This document shows, piece after piece, positions 10,712 to 24,579 of a stretch of DNA of 64,000 nt (the stretch's first letter is position 1; each line of letters begins with the position of its first letter). A model generated the notes under the pieces. It was not told the DNA's origin. It made no database searches and worked only from the letters and a program-made list of their open reading frames with translations. Made by a program: the position numbers and the translations under genes. This DNA comes from an uncultured Chlorobiota bacterium (GTDB lineage Bacteria > Bacteroidota > Ignavibacteria > UBA10030 > UBA6906): positions 62,001 through 126,000 of the forward strand of contig CAADGV010000005.1 in the NCBI GenBank assembly GCA_900696645.1, in the 5' to 3' direction.

Positions 10712-11005
10712 ATGGCAGTAACACTGATCGACGTTGAGTATGTTGCAAAGCTTGCCCGTCTTTCTTTTTCGGAGGATGAGAAGGAACAACTGACGCATCA
10801 ACTGAACGACATTCTCAAATACATGGAACAGCTCAACTCTCTTGATACAACGAACGTCGAACCGCTGGCGCATGTGATCGAGCTGAAGAATGTTTTTCGT
10901 GAGGATGAAGTCAGGAACGGAGTTTCACAGGAAGAGGCATTGAAGAACGCCCCTGCAGCAAGCGGAGAATTTTTCAAGGTGCCGAAAGTCATCGGCCCGC
11001 GATGA
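10712..11005 (+). CDS. gatC: Asp-tRNA(Asn)/Glu-tRNA(Gln) amidotransferase subunit GatC
   Basis: 97 aa; VEYVAKLARLSFSEDEKEQLTHQLNDILKYMEQL...FKVPKVIG. Confidence 0.94.
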   Translation: MAVTLIDVEYVAKLARLSFSEDEKEQLTHQLNDILKYMEQLNSLDTTNVEPLAHVIELKNVFREDEVRNGVSQEEALKNAPAASGEFFKVPKVIGPR

Positions 11006-11760
11006 TGAACGCCGTTGCCATCATCCCTGCCCGGTATGCATCACAGCGGCTTCCGGCAAAACCGCTTGCCGATATCGGCGGCAAGCCGATGATTCAGCAT
11101 GTGTATGAGAAGGCGGCACAAGCAACTCTCGCGGGCAGGGTTCTCGTTGCCACCGATGATCGCCGCATTGTTGAAGCCGTTGAGGCGTTCGGCGGAACTG
11201 CCGTGATGACACCGGCTGATCTGCAAAGCGGCACAGACAGGATTGCATTTGCTGCACGGAGCATTTCGGATGCCGACATTGTTGTGAACGTGCAGGGCGA
11301 TGAACCGCTGATCGCCCCCGAGATGATCGACGAAGGGATTCGCGTCGTTGCCGAAAGCGATGCATTGGTCGGAACTCTGGTCAGGAAAATCGAGCAAGAG
11401 GCGGAGCTGTTCAATCCCAATGTAGTCAAGGTCGCCCTCCGAAAAGACGGCACATGCCTCTATTTCTCCCGATCACCAATTCCGTTCGGCAGGGATTTGG
11501 CGCAACACGATTGGCTGAAGCATACACCTTACTACAAGCATATCGGGCTGTATGTGTTCAGGCGGGATTTCCTGCTCCGGTATCCGTCACTCCCGCAAAC
11601 GCCGCTTGAACTTGCCGAGAAGCTTGAGCAGTTGCGGATTCTCGAACATGGTTTTGCGATCCGGGCCGCTGTTACAGAATACGACAGCGTCCCCGTTGAT
11701 ACGGAGGACGATCTGAAACGTATCCGGCAAATCTATCAACAACAATATGAACGACGCTGA
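11002..11760 (+). CDS. kdsB: 3-deoxy-manno-octulosonate cytidylyltransferase
   Basis: IIPARYASQRLPAKPLADIGGKPMIQHVYE, VNVQGDEPLI; ATGA overlap with gatC. Confidence 0.95.
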   Translation: MMNAVAIIPARYASQRLPAKPLADIGGKPMIQHVYEKAAQATLAGRVLVATDDRRIVEAVEAFGGTAVMTPADLQSGTDRIAFAARSISDADIVVNVQGDEPLIAPEMIDEGIRVVAESDALVGTLVRKIEQEAELFNPNVVKVALRKDGTCLYFSRSPIPFGRDLAQHDWLKHTPYYKHIGLYVFRRDFLLRYPSLPQTPLELAEKLEQLRILEHGFAIRAAVTEYDSVPVDTEDDLKRIRQIYQQQYERR

Positions 11761-12382
11761 CATCAAGAAAGGATTCTGGGCGGAAGTGCGCACGACGTTC
11801 TTCCGCGGCGTTGTCGTCATCATACCTCTCGGGCTTACCTACTGGTTCTTCAGCTCACTGCTGAACGCCATCGACGGAATTTTCTCCCCCATTCTTGAAG
11901 ACTGGTTGGGCCGCAGCATTCCCGGGCTCGGTTTCATGACAATGGTCGTGCTCGTATTCCTTATTGGTCTGCTGACAAGAAATCTCGTCGGAAGAGTTCT
12001 GTTCAACGGCTTTGAAAATCTCCTCAAACAAATTCCGTTTGTTCGATCGGTGTACAGTGCCATCAAGGATCTTGTCGGGGCATTCACAATCGGTGGCAAA
12101 GGAAAGACTTTCCGTGAAGTGGTGATGATTCAGTATCCGCGACCCGGATTGAATACGCTTGCGTTCGTAACGAATGAAATGTCTTTCTTTACGGCGGACA
12201 ATACAAAGGTTGAGTTCTACAATGTCTATATCCCGAATCCCCCAAACCCGACATCGGGATTGTTGATTCTCGTTCCAAAAGAACAAGCCGTAAAACTGAA
12301 CCTGACCATCGAGCAGGGATTGAAACTTGTCCTTTCAGGCGGGATTGTTTTGCCGGAACGGCTTGAAGAACGGAAGAGATGA
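11747..12382 (+). CDS. DUF502 family membrane protein
   Basis: FFRGVVVIIPLGLTYWFF..., GLGFMTMVVLVFLIGLLTRN, IPFVRSVYSAIKDLVGAF. Confidence 0.88.
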   Translation: MNDADIKKGFWAEVRTTFFRGVVVIIPLGLTYWFFSSLLNAIDGIFSPILEDWLGRSIPGLGFMTMVVLVFLIGLLTRNLVGRVLFNGFENLLKQIPFVRSVYSAIKDLVGAFTIGGKGKTFREVVMIQYPRPGLNTLAFVTNEMSFFTADNTKVEFYNVYIPNPPNPTSGLLILVPKEQAVKLNLTIEQGLKLVLSGGIVLPERLEERKR

Positions 12383-12484
12383 TCTGCGGATACTCTTCGG
12401 AACGTTCCTGGTTTTGTTTTGATTGACAACTAATCCCTTTGTGAAACCCTCGTGCCTTCGATTCTTCGTGGCATATTATTGTAG

Positions 12485-14107
<1,623 letters not shown>

Positions 14108-16643: not shown

Positions 16644-18155
16644 ATGCCAACACTTGCTGCAATTGATGTCGGTTCCAACGGCATCCGCCTCATCGTCGGG
16701 AAGGTGAACGGCGACCGCAACATGCAGATCCTTGAAAACATCCGTGAAGCCGTGCGGCTCGGGCAGGATGTGTTCACAAAATCCGTCATTGCAGAAGAAA
16801 CAATCGACAAGGCGGCGGAGGCGTTCGCCCGATTCAAGTCAGTGATTGCCGTGCATGACGTGAAGTGGACGAAAGCCATTGCCACCAGTGCCGTGCGTGA
16901 AGCACAGAACAAGGATCTGTTTATTGACAGGATGGAGCAGGCAAGCGGCATCACGATCAATGTCGTTGACGGGGAAGAAGAGGCCGTTCTCATTCATCTT
17001 GCTGTTGCGTCGAAGATCAATCTGAAAAACAAACGCGCCATTCTCGTCGATATAGGCGGCGGAAGTACGGAGGTAACGCTTGTTGCCAACGGACAGATTC
17101 TCTCGACAGAAAGCTACAGGATGGGCACGGTACGCCTGCTGCAATTGCTTGAGGAGAAAAAACACGGCGAGAAGAAATTCAGTCAGCTTGTGCGCGAGTA
17201 CGTCGACGCGACGCAGAAGAGGATGAAGAAAGAACTCGGTGCAGAGAAAATCGACTTGTGCGTGGGAACGGGTGGAAACATCGAAGCACTCGGCGCGTTG
17301 CGTGTGCAACTCTTCGGCAAGGAACGGAATGATATTCTACAGGCGGATGAGCTCGATGCCCTCGTCAGGAAGTTGCAAAGCATGACGTATGAAGAGCGCA
17401 TCCGGCAATTGCTGCTTCGTCCCGACCGTGCCGACGTGATTGTTCCCGCGTCGATTGTTATCCAGAAGCTGGTAAAACGGGCCGGCGTGGATGAATTGCA
17501 CATCCCTTCCGTCGGGTTGAAAGACGGCCTGCTGATTGACATGGTGCAGGAGTTGTACGGAGAGAAGAAGACATCGTCACGCGATCAGGTGTTGACATCA
17601 GCGCTGCAACTCGGACGGAAATTTTCATTCGACGAGCAGCATGGACTTGCCGTAGCCCGGTATGCGATTCGTCTCTTTGACGAAACGCGAAGCCTCCACA
17701 ACCTCCCGATGGAATACCGTTTGCTGCTTGAGGTTGCCGCCCTGCTGCACGACATAGGCCACTTCATCAACATGATCGACCATCACAAGCATACCCTCTA
17801 TCTCCTTACAAAATCACCGGTTATCGGGCTCTCGAAGGCGCAGATAGCAATTGTGGCGAACGTCGCACGCTACCACCGGAAATCACTGCCGAAGCCGCAG
17901 CATGAGGCGTACAGTGTGCTCTCGTCGAAAGAGCGTGTAATCGTCTCGAAGCTTGCCGCTATTCTTCGTCTTGCAGATGCAATGGATAACGAGCATGCGA
18001 CGAAGGTCGAGGATTTTACTGTCGAGTACAAGAAACCGAGGTTCATCCTCACATTGAAAGGCGAAGGCGATTTGCTGCTTGAGAAGTGGGCGTTGATGAA
18101 GAAAGCAGCAATGTTCGAGGAAGTGTACAGCGTGAAGCTTTCCATAAATGACTAA
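16644..18155 (+). CDS. Ppx/GppA family phosphatase with C-terminal HD domain
   Basis: AAIDVGSNGIRLIVG, VDIGGGSTEV, LLHDIGHFINMIDHHKHTLYLL. Confidence 0.94.
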   Translation: MPTLAAIDVGSNGIRLIVGKVNGDRNMQILENIREAVRLGQDVFTKSVIAEETIDKAAEAFARFKSVIAVHDVKWTKAIATSAVREAQNKDLFIDRMEQASGITINVVDGEEEAVLIHLAVASKINLKNKRAILVDIGGGSTEVTLVANGQILSTESYRMGTVRLLQLLEEKKHGEKKFSQLVREYVDATQKRMKKELGAEKIDLCVGTGGNIEALGALRVQLFGKERNDILQADELDALVRKLQSMTYEERIRQLLLRPDRADVIVPASIVIQKLVKRAGVDELHIPSVGLKDGLLIDMVQELYGEKKTSSRDQVLTSALQLGRKFSFDEQHGLAVARYAIRLFDETRSLHNLPMEYRLLLEVAALLHDIGHFINMIDHHKHTLYLLTKSPVIGLSKAQIAIVANVARYHRKSLPKPQHEAYSVLSSKERVIVSKLAAILRLADAMDNEHATKVEDFTVEYKKPRFILTLKGEGDLLLEKWALMKKAAMFEEVYSVKLSIND

Positions 18156-19092
18156 GCGAGGCAAACAATCGGGATCGGGCAAAAAACCAAATCCGCGAAA
18201 TACTCCTTTGCGTCGCACACCGCGGATCGGCACAATTCTGATCAACTCGCTCGAACAGCGGTGGCGAAAGTACTTGAAAGAACTCCGCCGATGCAAGCGG
18301 GTGTTTTCGGAGGAGGCCGTTCACGACGTACGTGTGGCAACGCGACGGCTGATCTCAACGTTGATGATTATCGAGATTGTCTATCCTGACCGGAATGTGC
18401 GGAAAATCGAGCGCAGATTGAAGCGGCTATTCGATTCGATGAGCCCCTTGCGGGATACACAGGTACAACTTCTCACACTGCAAGAAAAGGTGATCGAGTA
18501 TCCTGAGTTGGAGACCTTGCAGACTGTTCTTAAAGTCCGCGAGCGAAACCTGATGAATTCCATCTCGCGAAGAATTTCAAAAATCGATACGCTCTCAATG
18601 GGAAGATCGCTTCGCGGATTGAAGGAAGGGCTTCGCCGGCATTTCTCACGCCCGATGATGGGGGAGATCGGGTGGAATGCCGTGCTCGGCTCGGCGCTGG
18701 GACGTTTCAATGCAGCCGTGTGGGCGAAGGAACGCATTCTTCCCTCCCGGCCCGCAACAATTCACCGGGCACGCATTGCATTCAAGAAATTCCGCTACAC
18801 GCTGGAAGCGATCGCGCCTATGCTGCCTGCCGCGGACAAACGCATCTTGAAAGCGATGGATGAGTATCAGACACGCATGGGAAACATACAGGATGCTCGA
18901 GTCCTTGCCAACCTCGTCATCCGCTTCGCACAGCAACGTCCGCCGGCATTGCGCAGAAGACTTGCCGGCTTCCGCCGTGAGCTGGTTGCCCGGCAGAAGG
19001 AATTGATCTCATTCTACGAACAATCGGCAGACGACTTGTACAATCTCCGCAAGCCGATGTTGAATTCGAAGCAGCAAGGAAGAATACAATGA
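18148..19092 (+). CDS. CHAD domain-containing protein
   Basis: VHDVRVATRRLISTL, IHRARIAFKKFRYTLE; conserved basic/histidine helices. Confidence 0.92.
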   Translation: MTKRGKQSGSGKKPNPRNTPLRRTPRIGTILINSLEQRWRKYLKELRRCKRVFSEEAVHDVRVATRRLISTLMIIEIVYPDRNVRKIERRLKRLFDSMSPLRDTQVQLLTLQEKVIEYPELETLQTVLKVRERNLMNSISRRISKIDTLSMGRSLRGLKEGLRRHFSRPMMGEIGWNAVLGSALGRFNAAVWAKERILPSRPATIHRARIAFKKFRYTLEAIAPMLPAADKRILKAMDEYQTRMGNIQDARVLANLVIRFAQQRPPALRRRLAGFRRELVARQKELISFYEQSADDLYNLRKPMLNSKQQGRIQ

Positions 19093-19598
19093 ATCTCTAC
19101 ATACTTCGTCATGCAATCGCCGAGGAGCGCAGCCGTGAAAAGTGGCCCGACGACTCTCTCCGTCCCCTCACGACAAAAGGGAAGAAGCGCATGCGTCACA
19201 TTGCGGAGGGTATGCAGGTTCTCCGCCTTTCGTTCGATGTTATCTACACAAGCCCGTACACGCGGGCGCGGGAAACCGCCGACATCGTTGTTGAAGTATT
19301 CAACGCCGCAAAGAAGCTTCGCGAAACCGATACACTGGCGGTTGACGGCGATCCTGAAGAACTCATTCGTCTCATCAACAGCGCGAAGAATGAGTTCTGT
19401 AATGTGTTGCTTGTCGGACATGAACCGTACCTCAGCGAATTGATCTCCACTTTGCTTGTCGGCGATTCGAGCCTGCCGCTGACAATGAAGAAGGGTGGAA
19501 TCTGCAAACTCAGCGTCGGCAATCTGAAATACGGTGCCTGTGCATCACTGGATTGGCTTCTGCCGCCATCTGTTTCAATGCAGATCGGGCATTCATGA
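19089..19598 (+). CDS. sixA: Phosphohistidine phosphatase SixA family
   Basis: LRHAIAEE RHG motif, TSPYTRARETADIV, VGHEPYLSELIS. Confidence 0.92.
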   Translation: MNLYILRHAIAEERSREKWPDDSLRPLTTKGKKRMRHIAEGMQVLRLSFDVIYTSPYTRARETADIVVEVFNAAKKLRETDTLAVDGDPEELIRLINSAKNEFCNVLLVGHEPYLSELISTLLVGDSSLPLTMKKGGICKLSVGNLKYGACASLDWLLPPSVSMQIGHS

Positions 19599-20434
19599 TG
19601 AAGGTTCTCGCCATGGCCTTTCTCGCTCTCCCGCTTCTCATACATACGGAGCAGAAGCCGGAAGCCAAAGCGGCTCTCTCCGATTATGATCTCTCCGACA
19701 AGAAGCCGCAACAATTCATTCTGCCCCACAAACTCGGAGAAGCGTCGGGATTGGCAATGACGGACGACGGACGGCTGTTCTGTCACGATGACGAGCGTGC
19801 CGTGGTGTATCAGATTGACTATTCGAACGGCGTGATTGTCAAACAATTCTCGCTCGGCAGATTTGGTGTGAGGGGAGATTTTGAGGATATCGCTGTGGCG
19901 GGAAAGTTGTTCTATCTTGTCGAAAGCAACGGCACGATCTATGAATTCCCGGAAGCCGGAAACGGGCAAACGGTTGAGTTTAGAATGTACAAGACGCCAT
20001 TGACAACACAGAACGACGTTGAAGGACTTGAGTACGATCCCGAAACACATTCTCTGCTGCTTGCGTGCAAAGAATTTCCCGGCAAGGGATATGAAGGGAA
20101 CAGGGCAGTATATTCCTTCTCTCTCAAAACAAAACAACTTTCTGCAACGCCACGCTTTCTCATCTCTCTCAAGGAAATCCGCGCAAAGGAGTTCAGACCT
20201 TCGGGCATTGCGCGCCATCCGAAAACGGGAACGTTCTTCATCATCGCAGCTCGTGGCAGCACCATTATCGAGATTTCCAAAGAGGGAAAAATTCTCGACC
20301 GGCAGTCTATCAACAAAAACGTGAATACGCATCCCGAAGGAATCACCTTTGCGCCGGATCTCACACTCATACTTTGCAACGACGGACAAGGAAAGCGCGG
20401 CACATTGACACTGTACCCGAGAACGAAGCGGTGA
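19595..20434 (+). CDS. SdiA-regulated-like beta-propeller protein, secreted
   Basis: Signal peptide; EASGLAMTDDGRLFCHDDERAVVYQID, FEDIAV, VEGLEYDP; internal ATG start overlapping sixA stop. Confidence 0.72.
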   Translation: MMKVLAMAFLALPLLIHTEQKPEAKAALSDYDLSDKKPQQFILPHKLGEASGLAMTDDGRLFCHDDERAVVYQIDYSNGVIVKQFSLGRFGVRGDFEDIAVAGKLFYLVESNGTIYEFPEAGNGQTVEFRMYKTPLTTQNDVEGLEYDPETHSLLLACKEFPGKGYEGNRAVYSFSLKTKQLSATPRFLISLKEIRAKEFRPSGIARHPKTGTFFIIAARGSTIIEISKEGKILDRQSINKNVNTHPEGITFAPDLTLILCNDGQGKRGTLTLYPRTKR

Positions 20435-20439
20435 AGCCC

Positions 20440-21114
20440 ATGACTCAAGCCGAAGACTTCAACAACAACGCTTCCATCATTGCCGCAACGGCAGAACGCG
20501 TCAAAGCAAGACTCTCGGGCGAAGGTTCGGGGCATGATTGGTTTCACGTTGAGCGTGTTTGGAGGAATGCGCGGCGCATCGGAGCGGGAGAACAGGTTGA
20601 CATGTTCGTTGTCGAACTTGCCGCGCTACTCCACGACATTGCCGACTGGAAGTTTGCCGGAGGAGATGATTCCGCCGGTCCGCGGGAGGCCCGGGCATGG
20701 CTCGAGAGTTTGCACGTTGATGAGGGGACGATTGCGCATGTTTGCGACATTATCAAGAATTTGTCGTTCAAAGGGGCCAGAGTGAAAAGCGAAATGAAGA
20801 CCCGCGAAGGCATGGTGGTTCAGGATGCTGACAGACTCGACGCACTCGGCGCCATCGGCATTGCGCGGGCATTTGCTTACGGCGGACACAAGGGGAGCGA
20901 GCTCTACAACCCGGACGTAAAGCCTGAGTTTCATGCATCGTTTGAAGATTACAAGCGCAGCAGGGGAAACACCATCAACCATTTTTATGAGAAATTGCTG
21001 CTCCTGAAAGAGTTGATGAATACTGAGACGGCAATACAGATTGCAGAACAGCGGCACAAGGTTATGGAAAATTTTCTTGAGCAGTTTCTTGCCGAATGGA
21101 ACGGCACACGCTGA
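20440..21114 (+). CDS. HD domain-containing phosphohydrolase (YedJ-like)
   Basis: GHDWFHVERVWRNARRI, LAALLHDIADWKF, VVQDADRLDALGAIGIARAF; GTG at 20431 is an alternative start. Confidence 0.9.
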   Translation: MTQAEDFNNNASIIAATAERVKARLSGEGSGHDWFHVERVWRNARRIGAGEQVDMFVVELAALLHDIADWKFAGGDDSAGPREARAWLESLHVDEGTIAHVCDIIKNLSFKGARVKSEMKTREGMVVQDADRLDALGAIGIARAFAYGGHKGSELYNPDVKPEFHASFEDYKRSRGNTINHFYEKLLLLKELMNTETAIQIAEQRHKVMENFLEQFLAEWNGTR

Positions 21115-21134: not shown

Positions 21135-23144
21135 ATGAAGAATCTCTCAATTATCTTTATGGCAATTTCCGCTACTGTGTGGGCGCAACAACCTGCGCGC
21201 GATTATCCGGTAACAGCGGTTCCGTTTACGCAGGTTCGTGTCTCCGATTCATTCTGGGCGCCGCGCATTGAAATGAACCGCAGCGTTACCATTCCTGCCT
21301 CATTCGATCAATGCAGAACAACCGGACGCATCAGGAATTTTGAAATGGCGGCTGAACGAAAAGGAAAATTCCTTACAAAATATTCGTTCGACGATACCGA
21401 CATCTATAAAACGCTTGAAGGCGCATCGTACACCCTCAGTACACATCCCGACATGGAACTTGACGCATATCTCGACAGTCTCATCCACTTGATCGAGCGG
21501 GCGCAGGAACCGGACGGCTATCTCTTCACCGAACGAACCATTGATCCCGTAAACACAAGCAAACGCATCGGACCGGAGCGTTGGGTGAATGAACGGCTGC
21601 ACAGTCACGAGTTGTACAACGCGGGGCATTTGTACGAAGCCGCAGCGGCACATTTCCTCGCTACCCGCAAACGATCCCTGCTGAACATCGCCCTGAGGAA
21701 CGCTGATCTTATTGACAGTACATTCGGACCCGATAAGCGGCGCGTTGCGCCGGGTCATCAGGTAATTGAAATGGGCCTCGTCAAACTCTATCGCATTACC
21801 GGAGACGAAAAGTATCTTCGTCTCGCCAAATTCTTTCTCGACGAGAGAGGGCGGATCCCGTATGACACGACCAGCGAAGATGTTTTCCGGAACGGCAAAT
21901 ACTGGCAGGATCACAAGCCGGTCGTCGAGCAAAAGGAAGCGGTCGGGCATGCCGTTCGCGCCATGTACATGTACAGCGCCATGGCGGACATCGCCGCATT
22001 GACGGGCGACGCAACGTACACAAGGGCAATCGACACACTTTGGGGAAATGTTGCGGGTAAGAAAATGTACGTACACGGCGGCATCGGCGCGGCAGGCGAC
22101 GGCGAGCGCTTTGGCGAGAACTGCGAATTGCCGAATCATGATGCATACTGCGAAACCTGTGCTGCTATCGGCAATGTGTTCTGGAATCATCGCATGTTCC
22201 TGCTTCACGGCAATGCGAGGTACATCGACGTGCTGGAGCGGATTCTCTACAACGGGTTGATTTCGGGTTTCGGACTGGACGGCAAGACATTCTTCTACAC
22301 CAACGCAATGCAAATCAGCAAACACTACCGCCATCCCGATATTGAACTCTCGCGCTCAACGTGGTTTCCCTGCTCATGTTGCCCCACAAACATCACACGC
22401 TTCGTCCCATCGATTCCGGGATACATTCTTGCACAAAAGGAAAAGAACATCTTCATTAATTTGTTCGTGTCGAGCGAAACGGATATCTCCCTCCCGAACG
22501 GCATTCAGGTTGCACTGAAGCAAGAGACGAACTATCCGTGGGACGGAAAGGTGAGAATTGCAGTCGATCCCAAGAAGTCGGCGCGGTTTTCCGTGAACAT
22601 CCGTATTCCCGGCTGGCTTTCTCAGCCCGTTCCGTCTGATCTGTACAGTTATCAATCAAAACGGACAGGTTCATATTCGCTGACAATTAACGGTTCAAAG
22701 GTAGCAGTGCAAGTCAAGAACGGGTACGCAGTTCTTGACCGTGAATGGAGGGAGAATGATGTGGTGGAAATTGAATTTCCGATGAACATCGAGCGCGTAC
22801 TATCCAACCCGAATCTCAGAGAAAATTCCGGGAAAGTTGCTCTGCAACGGGGACCGCTGGTGTATTGCGCAGAATGGATCGACAACGGCGGATTGACAAG
22901 CAATTTGTTGTTACCTGATGAGACACTGTTGAAGGCAGAATTTCGCCAGGACTTACTTAACGGCGTAATGACACTTTCCGGTGAAGTCCCGGCTATTGTT
23001 ATCGGGAAAGATGGCAGAAGCGCAGCAACGGTTCGGCAACAGTTTGTCGCAATTCCCTACTATGCATGGGCGCACCGGGGAGAGGGAGAAATGAACATCT
23101 GGCTGCCGCGAGCCCTCGCCGGAATAGAAATCATAAGTCACTAA
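21135..23144 (+). CDS. Glycoside hydrolase family 127 / DUF1680 (beta-L-arabinofuranosidase-like)
   Basis: 669 aa with signal peptide; ENCELPNHDAYCETCAAIGNVFWNHRM and SCCPTNITRF. Confidence 0.92.
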   Translation: MKNLSIIFMAISATVWAQQPARDYPVTAVPFTQVRVSDSFWAPRIEMNRSVTIPASFDQCRTTGRIRNFEMAAERKGKFLTKYSFDDTDIYKTLEGASYTLSTHPDMELDAYLDSLIHLIERAQEPDGYLFTERTIDPVNTSKRIGPERWVNERLHSHELYNAGHLYEAAAAHFLATRKRSLLNIALRNADLIDSTFGPDKRRVAPGHQVIEMGLVKLYRITGDEKYLRLAKFFLDERGRIPYDTTSEDVFRNGKYWQDHKPVVEQKEAVGHAVRAMYMYSAMADIAALTGDATYTRAIDTLWGNVAGKKMYVHGGIGAAGDGERFGENCELPNHDAYCETCAAIGNVFWNHRMFLLHGNARYIDVLERILYNGLISGFGLDGKTFFYTNAMQISKHYRHPDIELSRSTWFPCSCCPTNITRFVPSIPGYILAQKEKNIFINLFVSSETDISLPNGIQVALKQETNYPWDGKVRIAVDPKKSARFSVNIRIPGWLSQPVPSDLYSYQSKRTGSYSLTINGSKVAVQVKNGYAVLDREWRENDVVEIEFPMNIERVLSNPNLRENSGKVALQRGPLVYCAEWIDNGGLTSNLLLPDETLLKAEFRQDLLNGVMTLSGEVPAIVIGKDGRSAATVRQQFVAIPYYAWAHRGEGEMNIWLPRALAGIEIISH

Positions 23145-23162: not shown

Positions 23163-23867
23163 GTGACACCGGAGATACTTGCCAACGGACTTGCGTGGTA
23201 CGTCGTGTTTTTGTTTTCAATAACAGTGCACGAAGCGGCTCACGCATTTGCTGCAATGAAAATGGGAGACGACACGGCATACAATGGCGGACAAGTAACG
23301 CTCAATCCCGTACCCCATGTGAGGCGCGAGCCGTTCGGCACCGTTATCGTTCCCATTCTCTCCTACTTCTTTGCGGGATGGATGATGGGATGGGCAAGCG
23401 CGCCGTACAATCCCCATTGGGCGTTGCAATACCCGAAGCGCTCGGCGATTATGTCGCTTGCCGGCCCGGCATCGAATCTGTTGCTTGTGTTCGGGGCAGC
23501 GATCATCATTCGGCTGGGAGTTGAGTTCGGCTTCTTTGTTCCGCCCGACAAAATCTCCTTTACGCATCTCACAGAGGCTGTCGATGGGGGTATGGGGTCA
23601 AGTGTTGCAACAATGCTCAGTATCCTCTTCTCTCTGAACTTGTTACTGTTTGCATTCAACCTGATACCGGTGCCGCCGCTGGACGGAAGCGGAGCGTTGC
23701 CGCTTCTGATGAGTGAACAAGTCGGACAGAAGTATATGAGTCTTTTGCACAGATCCGGCTTTGCCATTTTCGGCATTTTTCTCGCCTGGCAATTGTTCAC
23801 GTATGTTTATCCGCCGATTCATTTGGCGGCGATTAACTTGCTGTATCCGGGGATGGAATATAGATGA
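23163..23867 (+). CDS. Site-2 protease (M50) family membrane metallopeptidase
   Basis: VHEAAHAFAA HExxH motif, AGPASNLLL, NLIPVPPLDGSG. Confidence 0.92.
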   Translation: MTPEILANGLAWYVVFLFSITVHEAAHAFAAMKMGDDTAYNGGQVTLNPVPHVRREPFGTVIVPILSYFFAGWMMGWASAPYNPHWALQYPKRSAIMSLAGPASNLLLVFGAAIIIRLGVEFGFFVPPDKISFTHLTEAVDGGMGSSVATMLSILFSLNLLLFAFNLIPVPPLDGSGALPLLMSEQVGQKYMSLLHRSGFAIFGIFLAWQLFTYVYPPIHLAAINLLYPGMEYR

Positions 23868-23965: not shown

Positions 23966-24214
23966 ATGAGTGAAATCAGCAATACGCCAATGGAGGAGTT
24001 GCTCCACAAGTTTAACCTTCTGGATTCTGCCTCGAAGAAAGAGTTGGGGGATTACCTCGATTTTCTTCTTTCTCGAACCAGTCGCCCGGGAAATGGCAAC
24101 ATGAAATCATACAAGAGAAAGATCCTGACTGTATCCACGTGGACAGACGAGGATATCAAGGCATTTCATGATGTAGCACAACTCTTCAGCCAATGGAAGC
24201 CCGCAAACTGGTAA
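23966..24214 (+). CDS. Putative VapB-like antitoxin
   Basis: 82 aa; directly upstream of and overlapping a PIN toxin gene; SKKELGDYLDFLLSR resembles small antitoxins. Confidence 0.7.
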   Translation: MSEISNTPMEELLHKFNLLDSASKKELGDYLDFLLSRTSRPGNGNMKSYKRKILTVSTWTDEDIKAFHDVAQLFSQWKPANW

Positions 24215-24579
24215 TCGATAGCACGCTCTTCATCGAGCATCTCCGCGCTAAAGACAAATCTGCAACAACCCTTTCCCAACTGTCGGAAGAGACAGTTCTT
24301 TTTGTTTCGGCTGTTACTCTGTTCGAGTTATTCACGGGGGCGTCGACGGAAGAGAAGAAAAGAGATGTACACATTCTTACGGACGATCTTACTGTCATTC
24401 CATTCGATAAGGAAACCGCCTTTGAAGCCGTAACAATCTATCGGGTGCTTCGGTCGCAGAACAAGATGATTGAGTTCAGGGATTTATTTATAGCTGCGTC
24501 AGCAATCAGGCACAACCTGGAGCTGAAAACGTTGAACCGAAAGCACTTTGAAAGAATAGACAACCTTCGGCTTGCTTGA
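24193..24579 (+). CDS. PIN domain toxin, VapC-like
   Basis: LVIDSTLFIEHLR, SAVTLFELFTGA, IEFRDLFIAASAI. Confidence 0.88.
   Translation: MEARKLVIDSTLFIEHLRAKDKSATTLSQLSEETVLFVSAVTLFELFTGASTEEKKRDVHILTDDLTVIPFDKETAFEAVTIYRVLRSQNKMIEFRDLFIAASAIRHNLELKTLNRKHFERIDNLRLA

Follow-up and report, generated by a model that had tools for sequence, protein, structure and literature searches.

Bacterial polyphosphate metabolism is usually described as cytoplasmic. In published polyphosphate operons (PMC6537752, PMC10892726), a CHAD domain protein is encoded beside an exopolyphosphatase and a SixA phosphatase, and the passages on these operons make no mention of an exported propeller. The operon analyzed here begins with the same three genes and continues with a gene for a beta-propeller predicted to be exported. 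The operon is located in a window of 64,000 nucleotides, the whole stretch of DNA that was analyzed, which belongs to contig C5 of a 4.2-Mb Ignavibacteria-type genome. While the Ppx-CHAD-SixA triad is known, the propeller is the new part. The interpretation preferred here, with moderate confidence, is a polyphosphate-turnover unit with an envelope arm: cytoplasmic Ppx, CHAD and SixA would be coupled to an exported propeller, whose acidic face would handle phosphate or polyphosphate in the envelope, and the fifth gene of the run would be unrelated.

The preliminary description of this DNA listed five genes with four overlaps and assigned them to the Ppx/GppA-HD, CHAD, SixA, SdiA-regulated and HD families. 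Each of the five reading frames is open at its listed position on the forward strand, and Pfam and NCBIfam agree with the assignments. The overlaps between successive genes are 8, 4, 4 and 4 nt. The last of them is a GTGA at which the propeller stop and the start of the small HD gene coincide, and an in-frame ATG follows 9 nt later at 20440. The SixA/propeller overlap is retained in the nearest relative. Short overlaps are also frequent in other gene runs of the window (e.g., 11002/11005 and 11747/11760), and therefore the overlaps in the operon are unremarkable by themselves. Scans of the locus for promoters and terminators gave signals at chance level.

The first gene (16644-18155) can be assigned to the Ppx/GppA exopolyphosphatases by its Ppx-GppA domain with phosphate-binding motifs. 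The protein matches PF02541 (2.8e-50), PF21447 (Ppx-GppA_III) and, for its C-terminal HD domain, PF01966, as well as TIGR03706 below the cut-off of that family; the best PDB matches are exopolyphosphatase structures. The motifs DVGSN at residue 8, GEEEA at 110, DIGGGS at 136 and HDIG at 369 are intact. The second gene (18148-19092) encodes a CHAD protein (PF05235, 6.5e-31) with a pI of 11.4 and CHAD relatives in PDB. It has the motifs HxxRxxxR at 59, which agrees with the H/R/R polyphosphate-contact residues described in PMC6537752, and HxxRxxxK at 206, and is a predicted polyphosphate binder. The third gene (19089-19598) encodes a SixA-type histidine phosphatase, with a match to TIGR00249 above cut-off, PDB matches to 3f2i and E. 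coli SixA (1ujb), and intact RHA (at 7) and GHEP (at 110) motifs.

Of 19 loci of the family, some of them cut by contig ends, 17 have Ppx and CHAD side by side, and SixA is next in 10 of those 17; G012 has Ppx-SixA without CHAD. The Ppx-CHAD pair is kept throughout the family, usually with SixA next, and the triad has already been described (PMC6537752, PMC10892726). Family knowledge and this published context give a firm basis for cytoplasmic polyphosphate turnover by these three proteins. A MoxR-type AAA gene often follows Ppx-CHAD(-SixA) in family relatives (L037, L039, L045, L047-L051), and a MoxR homolog is present in the window at 1833-2879, 14 kb upstream of the operon. The Ppx frame is apparently split in several metagenome-assembled genomes of the family (L048, L016, L018), through assembly error or decay. 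No polyphosphate kinase gene was noticed in the window, as had been stated for it before; the genome includes two PPK1 genes (contigs C30 and C40) and one PPK2 gene (C42), none of them on C5, and a polyphosphate kinase gene linked to ppx, as in ppk-ppx operons, was not found in this genome.

The fourth gene (19595-20434) belongs to the SdiA-regulated (YjiK) family, based on a match to PF06977 above cut-off and a YjiK-like fold. The AlphaFold2 model from 61 sequences (pLDDT 94.3, pTM 0.89) has five blades by the strand pattern read from the DSSP string, with the N-terminal strand closing the last blade. Among solved structures, YjiK (3qqz; TM-score 0.72 on the target, 16% identity) is nearest in fold, and glutaminyl cyclases are among the other best-fitting folds. 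To our knowledge, no function is known for YjiK. Within the family, the propeller represents a distinct subfamily linked to polyphosphate genes, and this linkage gives a first functional lead for part of a family whose name is silent on function. The N-terminus resembles a signal peptide, judged by eye, and the protein is thus predicted to be exported. The residues invariant among the 61 sequences are mostly acidic (E49, D66, E67, D95, E97, E143 and E248), which suggests a possible metal site. Beta-propeller phytases have six blades. The identity of this protein as such a phytase was rejected, as only PF13449 was matched, below cut-off, and the model has five blades. The likeness to phytases would lie in the acidic residues at one propeller face and in the phosphate-related setting.

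When 391 genomes of the class were searched with a profile from nine relatives, approximately 60 strong members of the subfamily were found, and a pattern from a seven-row alignment revealed 72 propeller loci in named genomes. Linkage was counted within 6 kb in 120 non-redundant subfamily loci. PPK1 was found near the propeller in 34 loci (0.65 expected), SixA in 21 (1.0 expected), CHAD in 8 (0.5 expected) and Ppx in 5, and at least one of the four in 46 (2.9 expected). The expected values were derived from assumed copy numbers, and loci of the same clade do not count as independent observations. As a control, polyphosphate genes were found near none of 32 other, weaker-scoring propellers in the same class genomes (Fisher P = 2e-6, uncorrected for relatedness). 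On a quick tree of the propellers, the state of linkage changed at least 18 times, and the loci show 11 different combinations of partner, side and strand.

The linkage is observed in at least eight arrangements from Ignavibacteria, other Bacteroidota, Gemmatimonadota, Calditrichota and one gammaproteobacterium. The propeller gene directly follows SixA in G000, G001, G002 and G012, while in G006 it is distal, with a TonB-dependent receptor gene inserted after SixA. In two Gemmatimonadota loci (L170 and L203), PPK1, SixA, DUF4956, propeller and CHAD are co-directional in this order; DUF4956 was assigned by test in L170 (7823-8920) and in the Calditrichota locus L177 (2509-3603), and by size and position in L203. 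L177 and several Gemmatimonadota have propeller-PPK1, in L177 with DUF4956 next to them, a Bacteroidetes locus (L175) has propeller, CHAD and convergent PPK1-SixA, and the gammaproteobacterial locus (L213) has the propeller and convergent PPK1. Many members of the class have the propeller, an Omp85 barrel fused to a kinase-like domain, and convergent PPK1-SixA. Adjoining the PPK1-SixA-propeller-CHAD run of L203, a PPK1 with an N-terminal CYTH domain is encoded (10865-14059). Two other neighbors were recorded: a protein with HD and PycTM (Pycsar effector) domains is recurrent near SixA/PPK1 (e.g., L092:3052-4281) and lies within 6 kb of the propeller in 24 of the 120 loci, and a gene with an adenylate/guanylate cyclase domain is near the propeller in 18, often with PPK1 (L094, L095, L101, L105, L106, L111, L112).

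Since relatives of the propeller adjoin polyphosphate genes in several phyla, the propeller probably represents an envelope component that has been missing from polyphosphate metabolism. The preliminary description had proposed a dedicated polyphosphate module. This proposal is supported for Ppx-CHAD-SixA, by family-wide linkage and published context (PMC6537752, PMC10892726), and for the propeller as a partner, by its recurrent linkage with PPK1, SixA and CHAD; it is not supported for the small HD hydrolase, which is linked in the two closest genomes only. A literature search covering few subscription papers found no link of either the propeller or DUF4956 with polyphosphate.

The tie of the propeller to polyphosphate could be indirect, because polyphosphate genes are lacking within 6 kb at 48 of the 94 propeller loci that could be scored, and because the propeller is linked most tightly to the Omp85 partner, found in 61 of the 120 loci (e.g., L122:4428-7064 and L154:11043-13643) and the sole partner in many. 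In this partner, an Omp85 barrel is preceded by an N-terminal domain of 500 residues, for which no Pfam family was found. An invariant K and the motifs GDWDRHxDQW and DRDxxF are conserved in the domain, and its model (pLDDT 88.5) matches CtkA, CotH kinase, HipA and Golgi casein kinase. With TM-scores of only about 0.24-0.33 on the query, the best matches indicate a shared kinase-like fold of the CotH/Fam20/HipA sort, not close kinship. In the genome of the window, the same parts are three separate genes on contig C7 (L219:7051-11097), coding for a kinase-like protein, a metallophosphoesterase and a barrel. A metallophosphatase fusion, suggested for the Omp85 partner by single-linkage clustering, was refuted by direct comparison, and the motifs and fold are kinase-like. 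These observations raise the alternative that Ppx-CHAD-SixA alone is the functional unit, while the propeller serves an envelope system of kinase-fold Omp85 and metallophosphoesterase, whose targets would be surface glycans or lipids, with only second-hand proximity to polyphosphate. We regard this alternative as possible but rather doubtful, since the propeller stands directly with SixA, CHAD or PPK1, with no Omp85 gene between, in this family, several Gemmatimonadota and one Calditrichota locus. VTC/DUF4956/CotH clusters offer a comparison: DUF4956 and a CotH-like kinase fold are likewise recurrent beside the propeller in some phyla, whereas PPK1, once with a fused CYTH domain, stands where those clusters have a VTC protein, and the kinase fold is joined to an Omp85 barrel.

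Under the preferred reading of a turnover unit with an envelope arm, Ppx would hydrolyze polyphosphate processively, polyphosphate or pppGpp being the substrate predicted from the family. CHAD would bind the polymer and is therefore proposed to hold enzyme and granule together. SixA would remove phosphate from phosphohistidine, for which the PPK1 phosphohistidine intermediate is a plausible candidate. Outside the cytoplasm, the propeller would most likely carry a divalent metal at the invariant acidic residues of the blade starts and bind or cleave a phosphorylated ligand, either polyphosphate or the phosphate esters carried by surface polymers. Its partners may be the surface set encoded elsewhere in the genome: the CotH/Fam20-like kinase-fold protein, the metallophosphoesterase and the Omp85 barrel. 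That a conserved propeller of this kind is tied to PPK1, SixA, CHAD and Ppx in several phyla, frequently next to an Omp85-fused kinase fold, suggests that polyphosphate biology has an unrecognized envelope side, and it provides a concrete set of uncharacterized proteins open to testing. A much more speculative and improbable extension is an undescribed envelope system in which polyphosphate is made inside, exported or displayed with DUF4956 as a possible membrane partner, and used or trimmed by the outer-membrane-anchored kinase, the metallophosphoesterase and the propeller; polyphosphate might then serve as an extracellular phosphate donor in place of ATP.

The fifth gene (20431-21114) encodes an HD hydrolase (PF01966; PRK10119 below cut-off). 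In the PDB search, it aligned over nearly its full length with BH2835 (3dto), YpgQ (5dqv) and YedJ (3gw7), and its H, HD and QDAD motifs are intact; it can thus be placed in the YpgQ/YedJ type. YpgQ is a Mn-dependent NTP/dNTP pyrophosphohydrolase (PMC8177086), and nucleotide pyrophosphohydrolase activity is predicted here by likeness. The gene is linked to the operon only in the two closest genomes (G000 and G001), and in G001 a small outer-membrane barrel gene (L036:10854-11495) intervenes between propeller and HD genes. It lies on another contig in the genus-mate G002, in G006 and in G009, and a search of the family genomes did not find it in most members. The five-gene order is thus confined to the closest strains. 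It was previously suggested that all five genes form a dedicated polyphosphate/phosphate-signaling module with the small HD enzyme as a partner; here this is considered as a polyphosphate/ppGpp signaling module. The overlaps and the purifying selection common to all five genes (dN/dS 0.03-0.16 against the nearest relative) agree with such a module, but the scattered position of the HD gene, the intervening barrel gene and the pyrophosphohydrolase YpgQ among its relatives (PMC8177086) make it very unlikely. A (p)ppGpp role of the protein is not favored. The gene is best treated as a passenger, which would encode an unrelated nucleotide pyrophosphohydrolase.

A GH127 glycosidase gene (Pfam; 21135-23144, forward strand) starts 20 nt after the stop of the small HD gene and may share the operon transcript. 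An M50-like membrane protease ORF (23163-23867, forward strand), recognized by its frame and a HEAAH motif, follows 18 nt later. Thus, there is no clear end at 21114, and the five-gene boundary is not natural. Such close spacing and the frequent overlaps in the window would fit a chance operon, in which compaction joined unrelated genes; for the first four genes, this is already contradicted, since the linkage recurs across several phyla and the control was clean, and we consider it very unlikely. Downstream, at 23966-24579 of the window, lies a small gene overlapping a PIN-like gene, which together resemble a VapBC-type toxin-antitoxin pair and were not seen at the corresponding position of the closest relative (L036).
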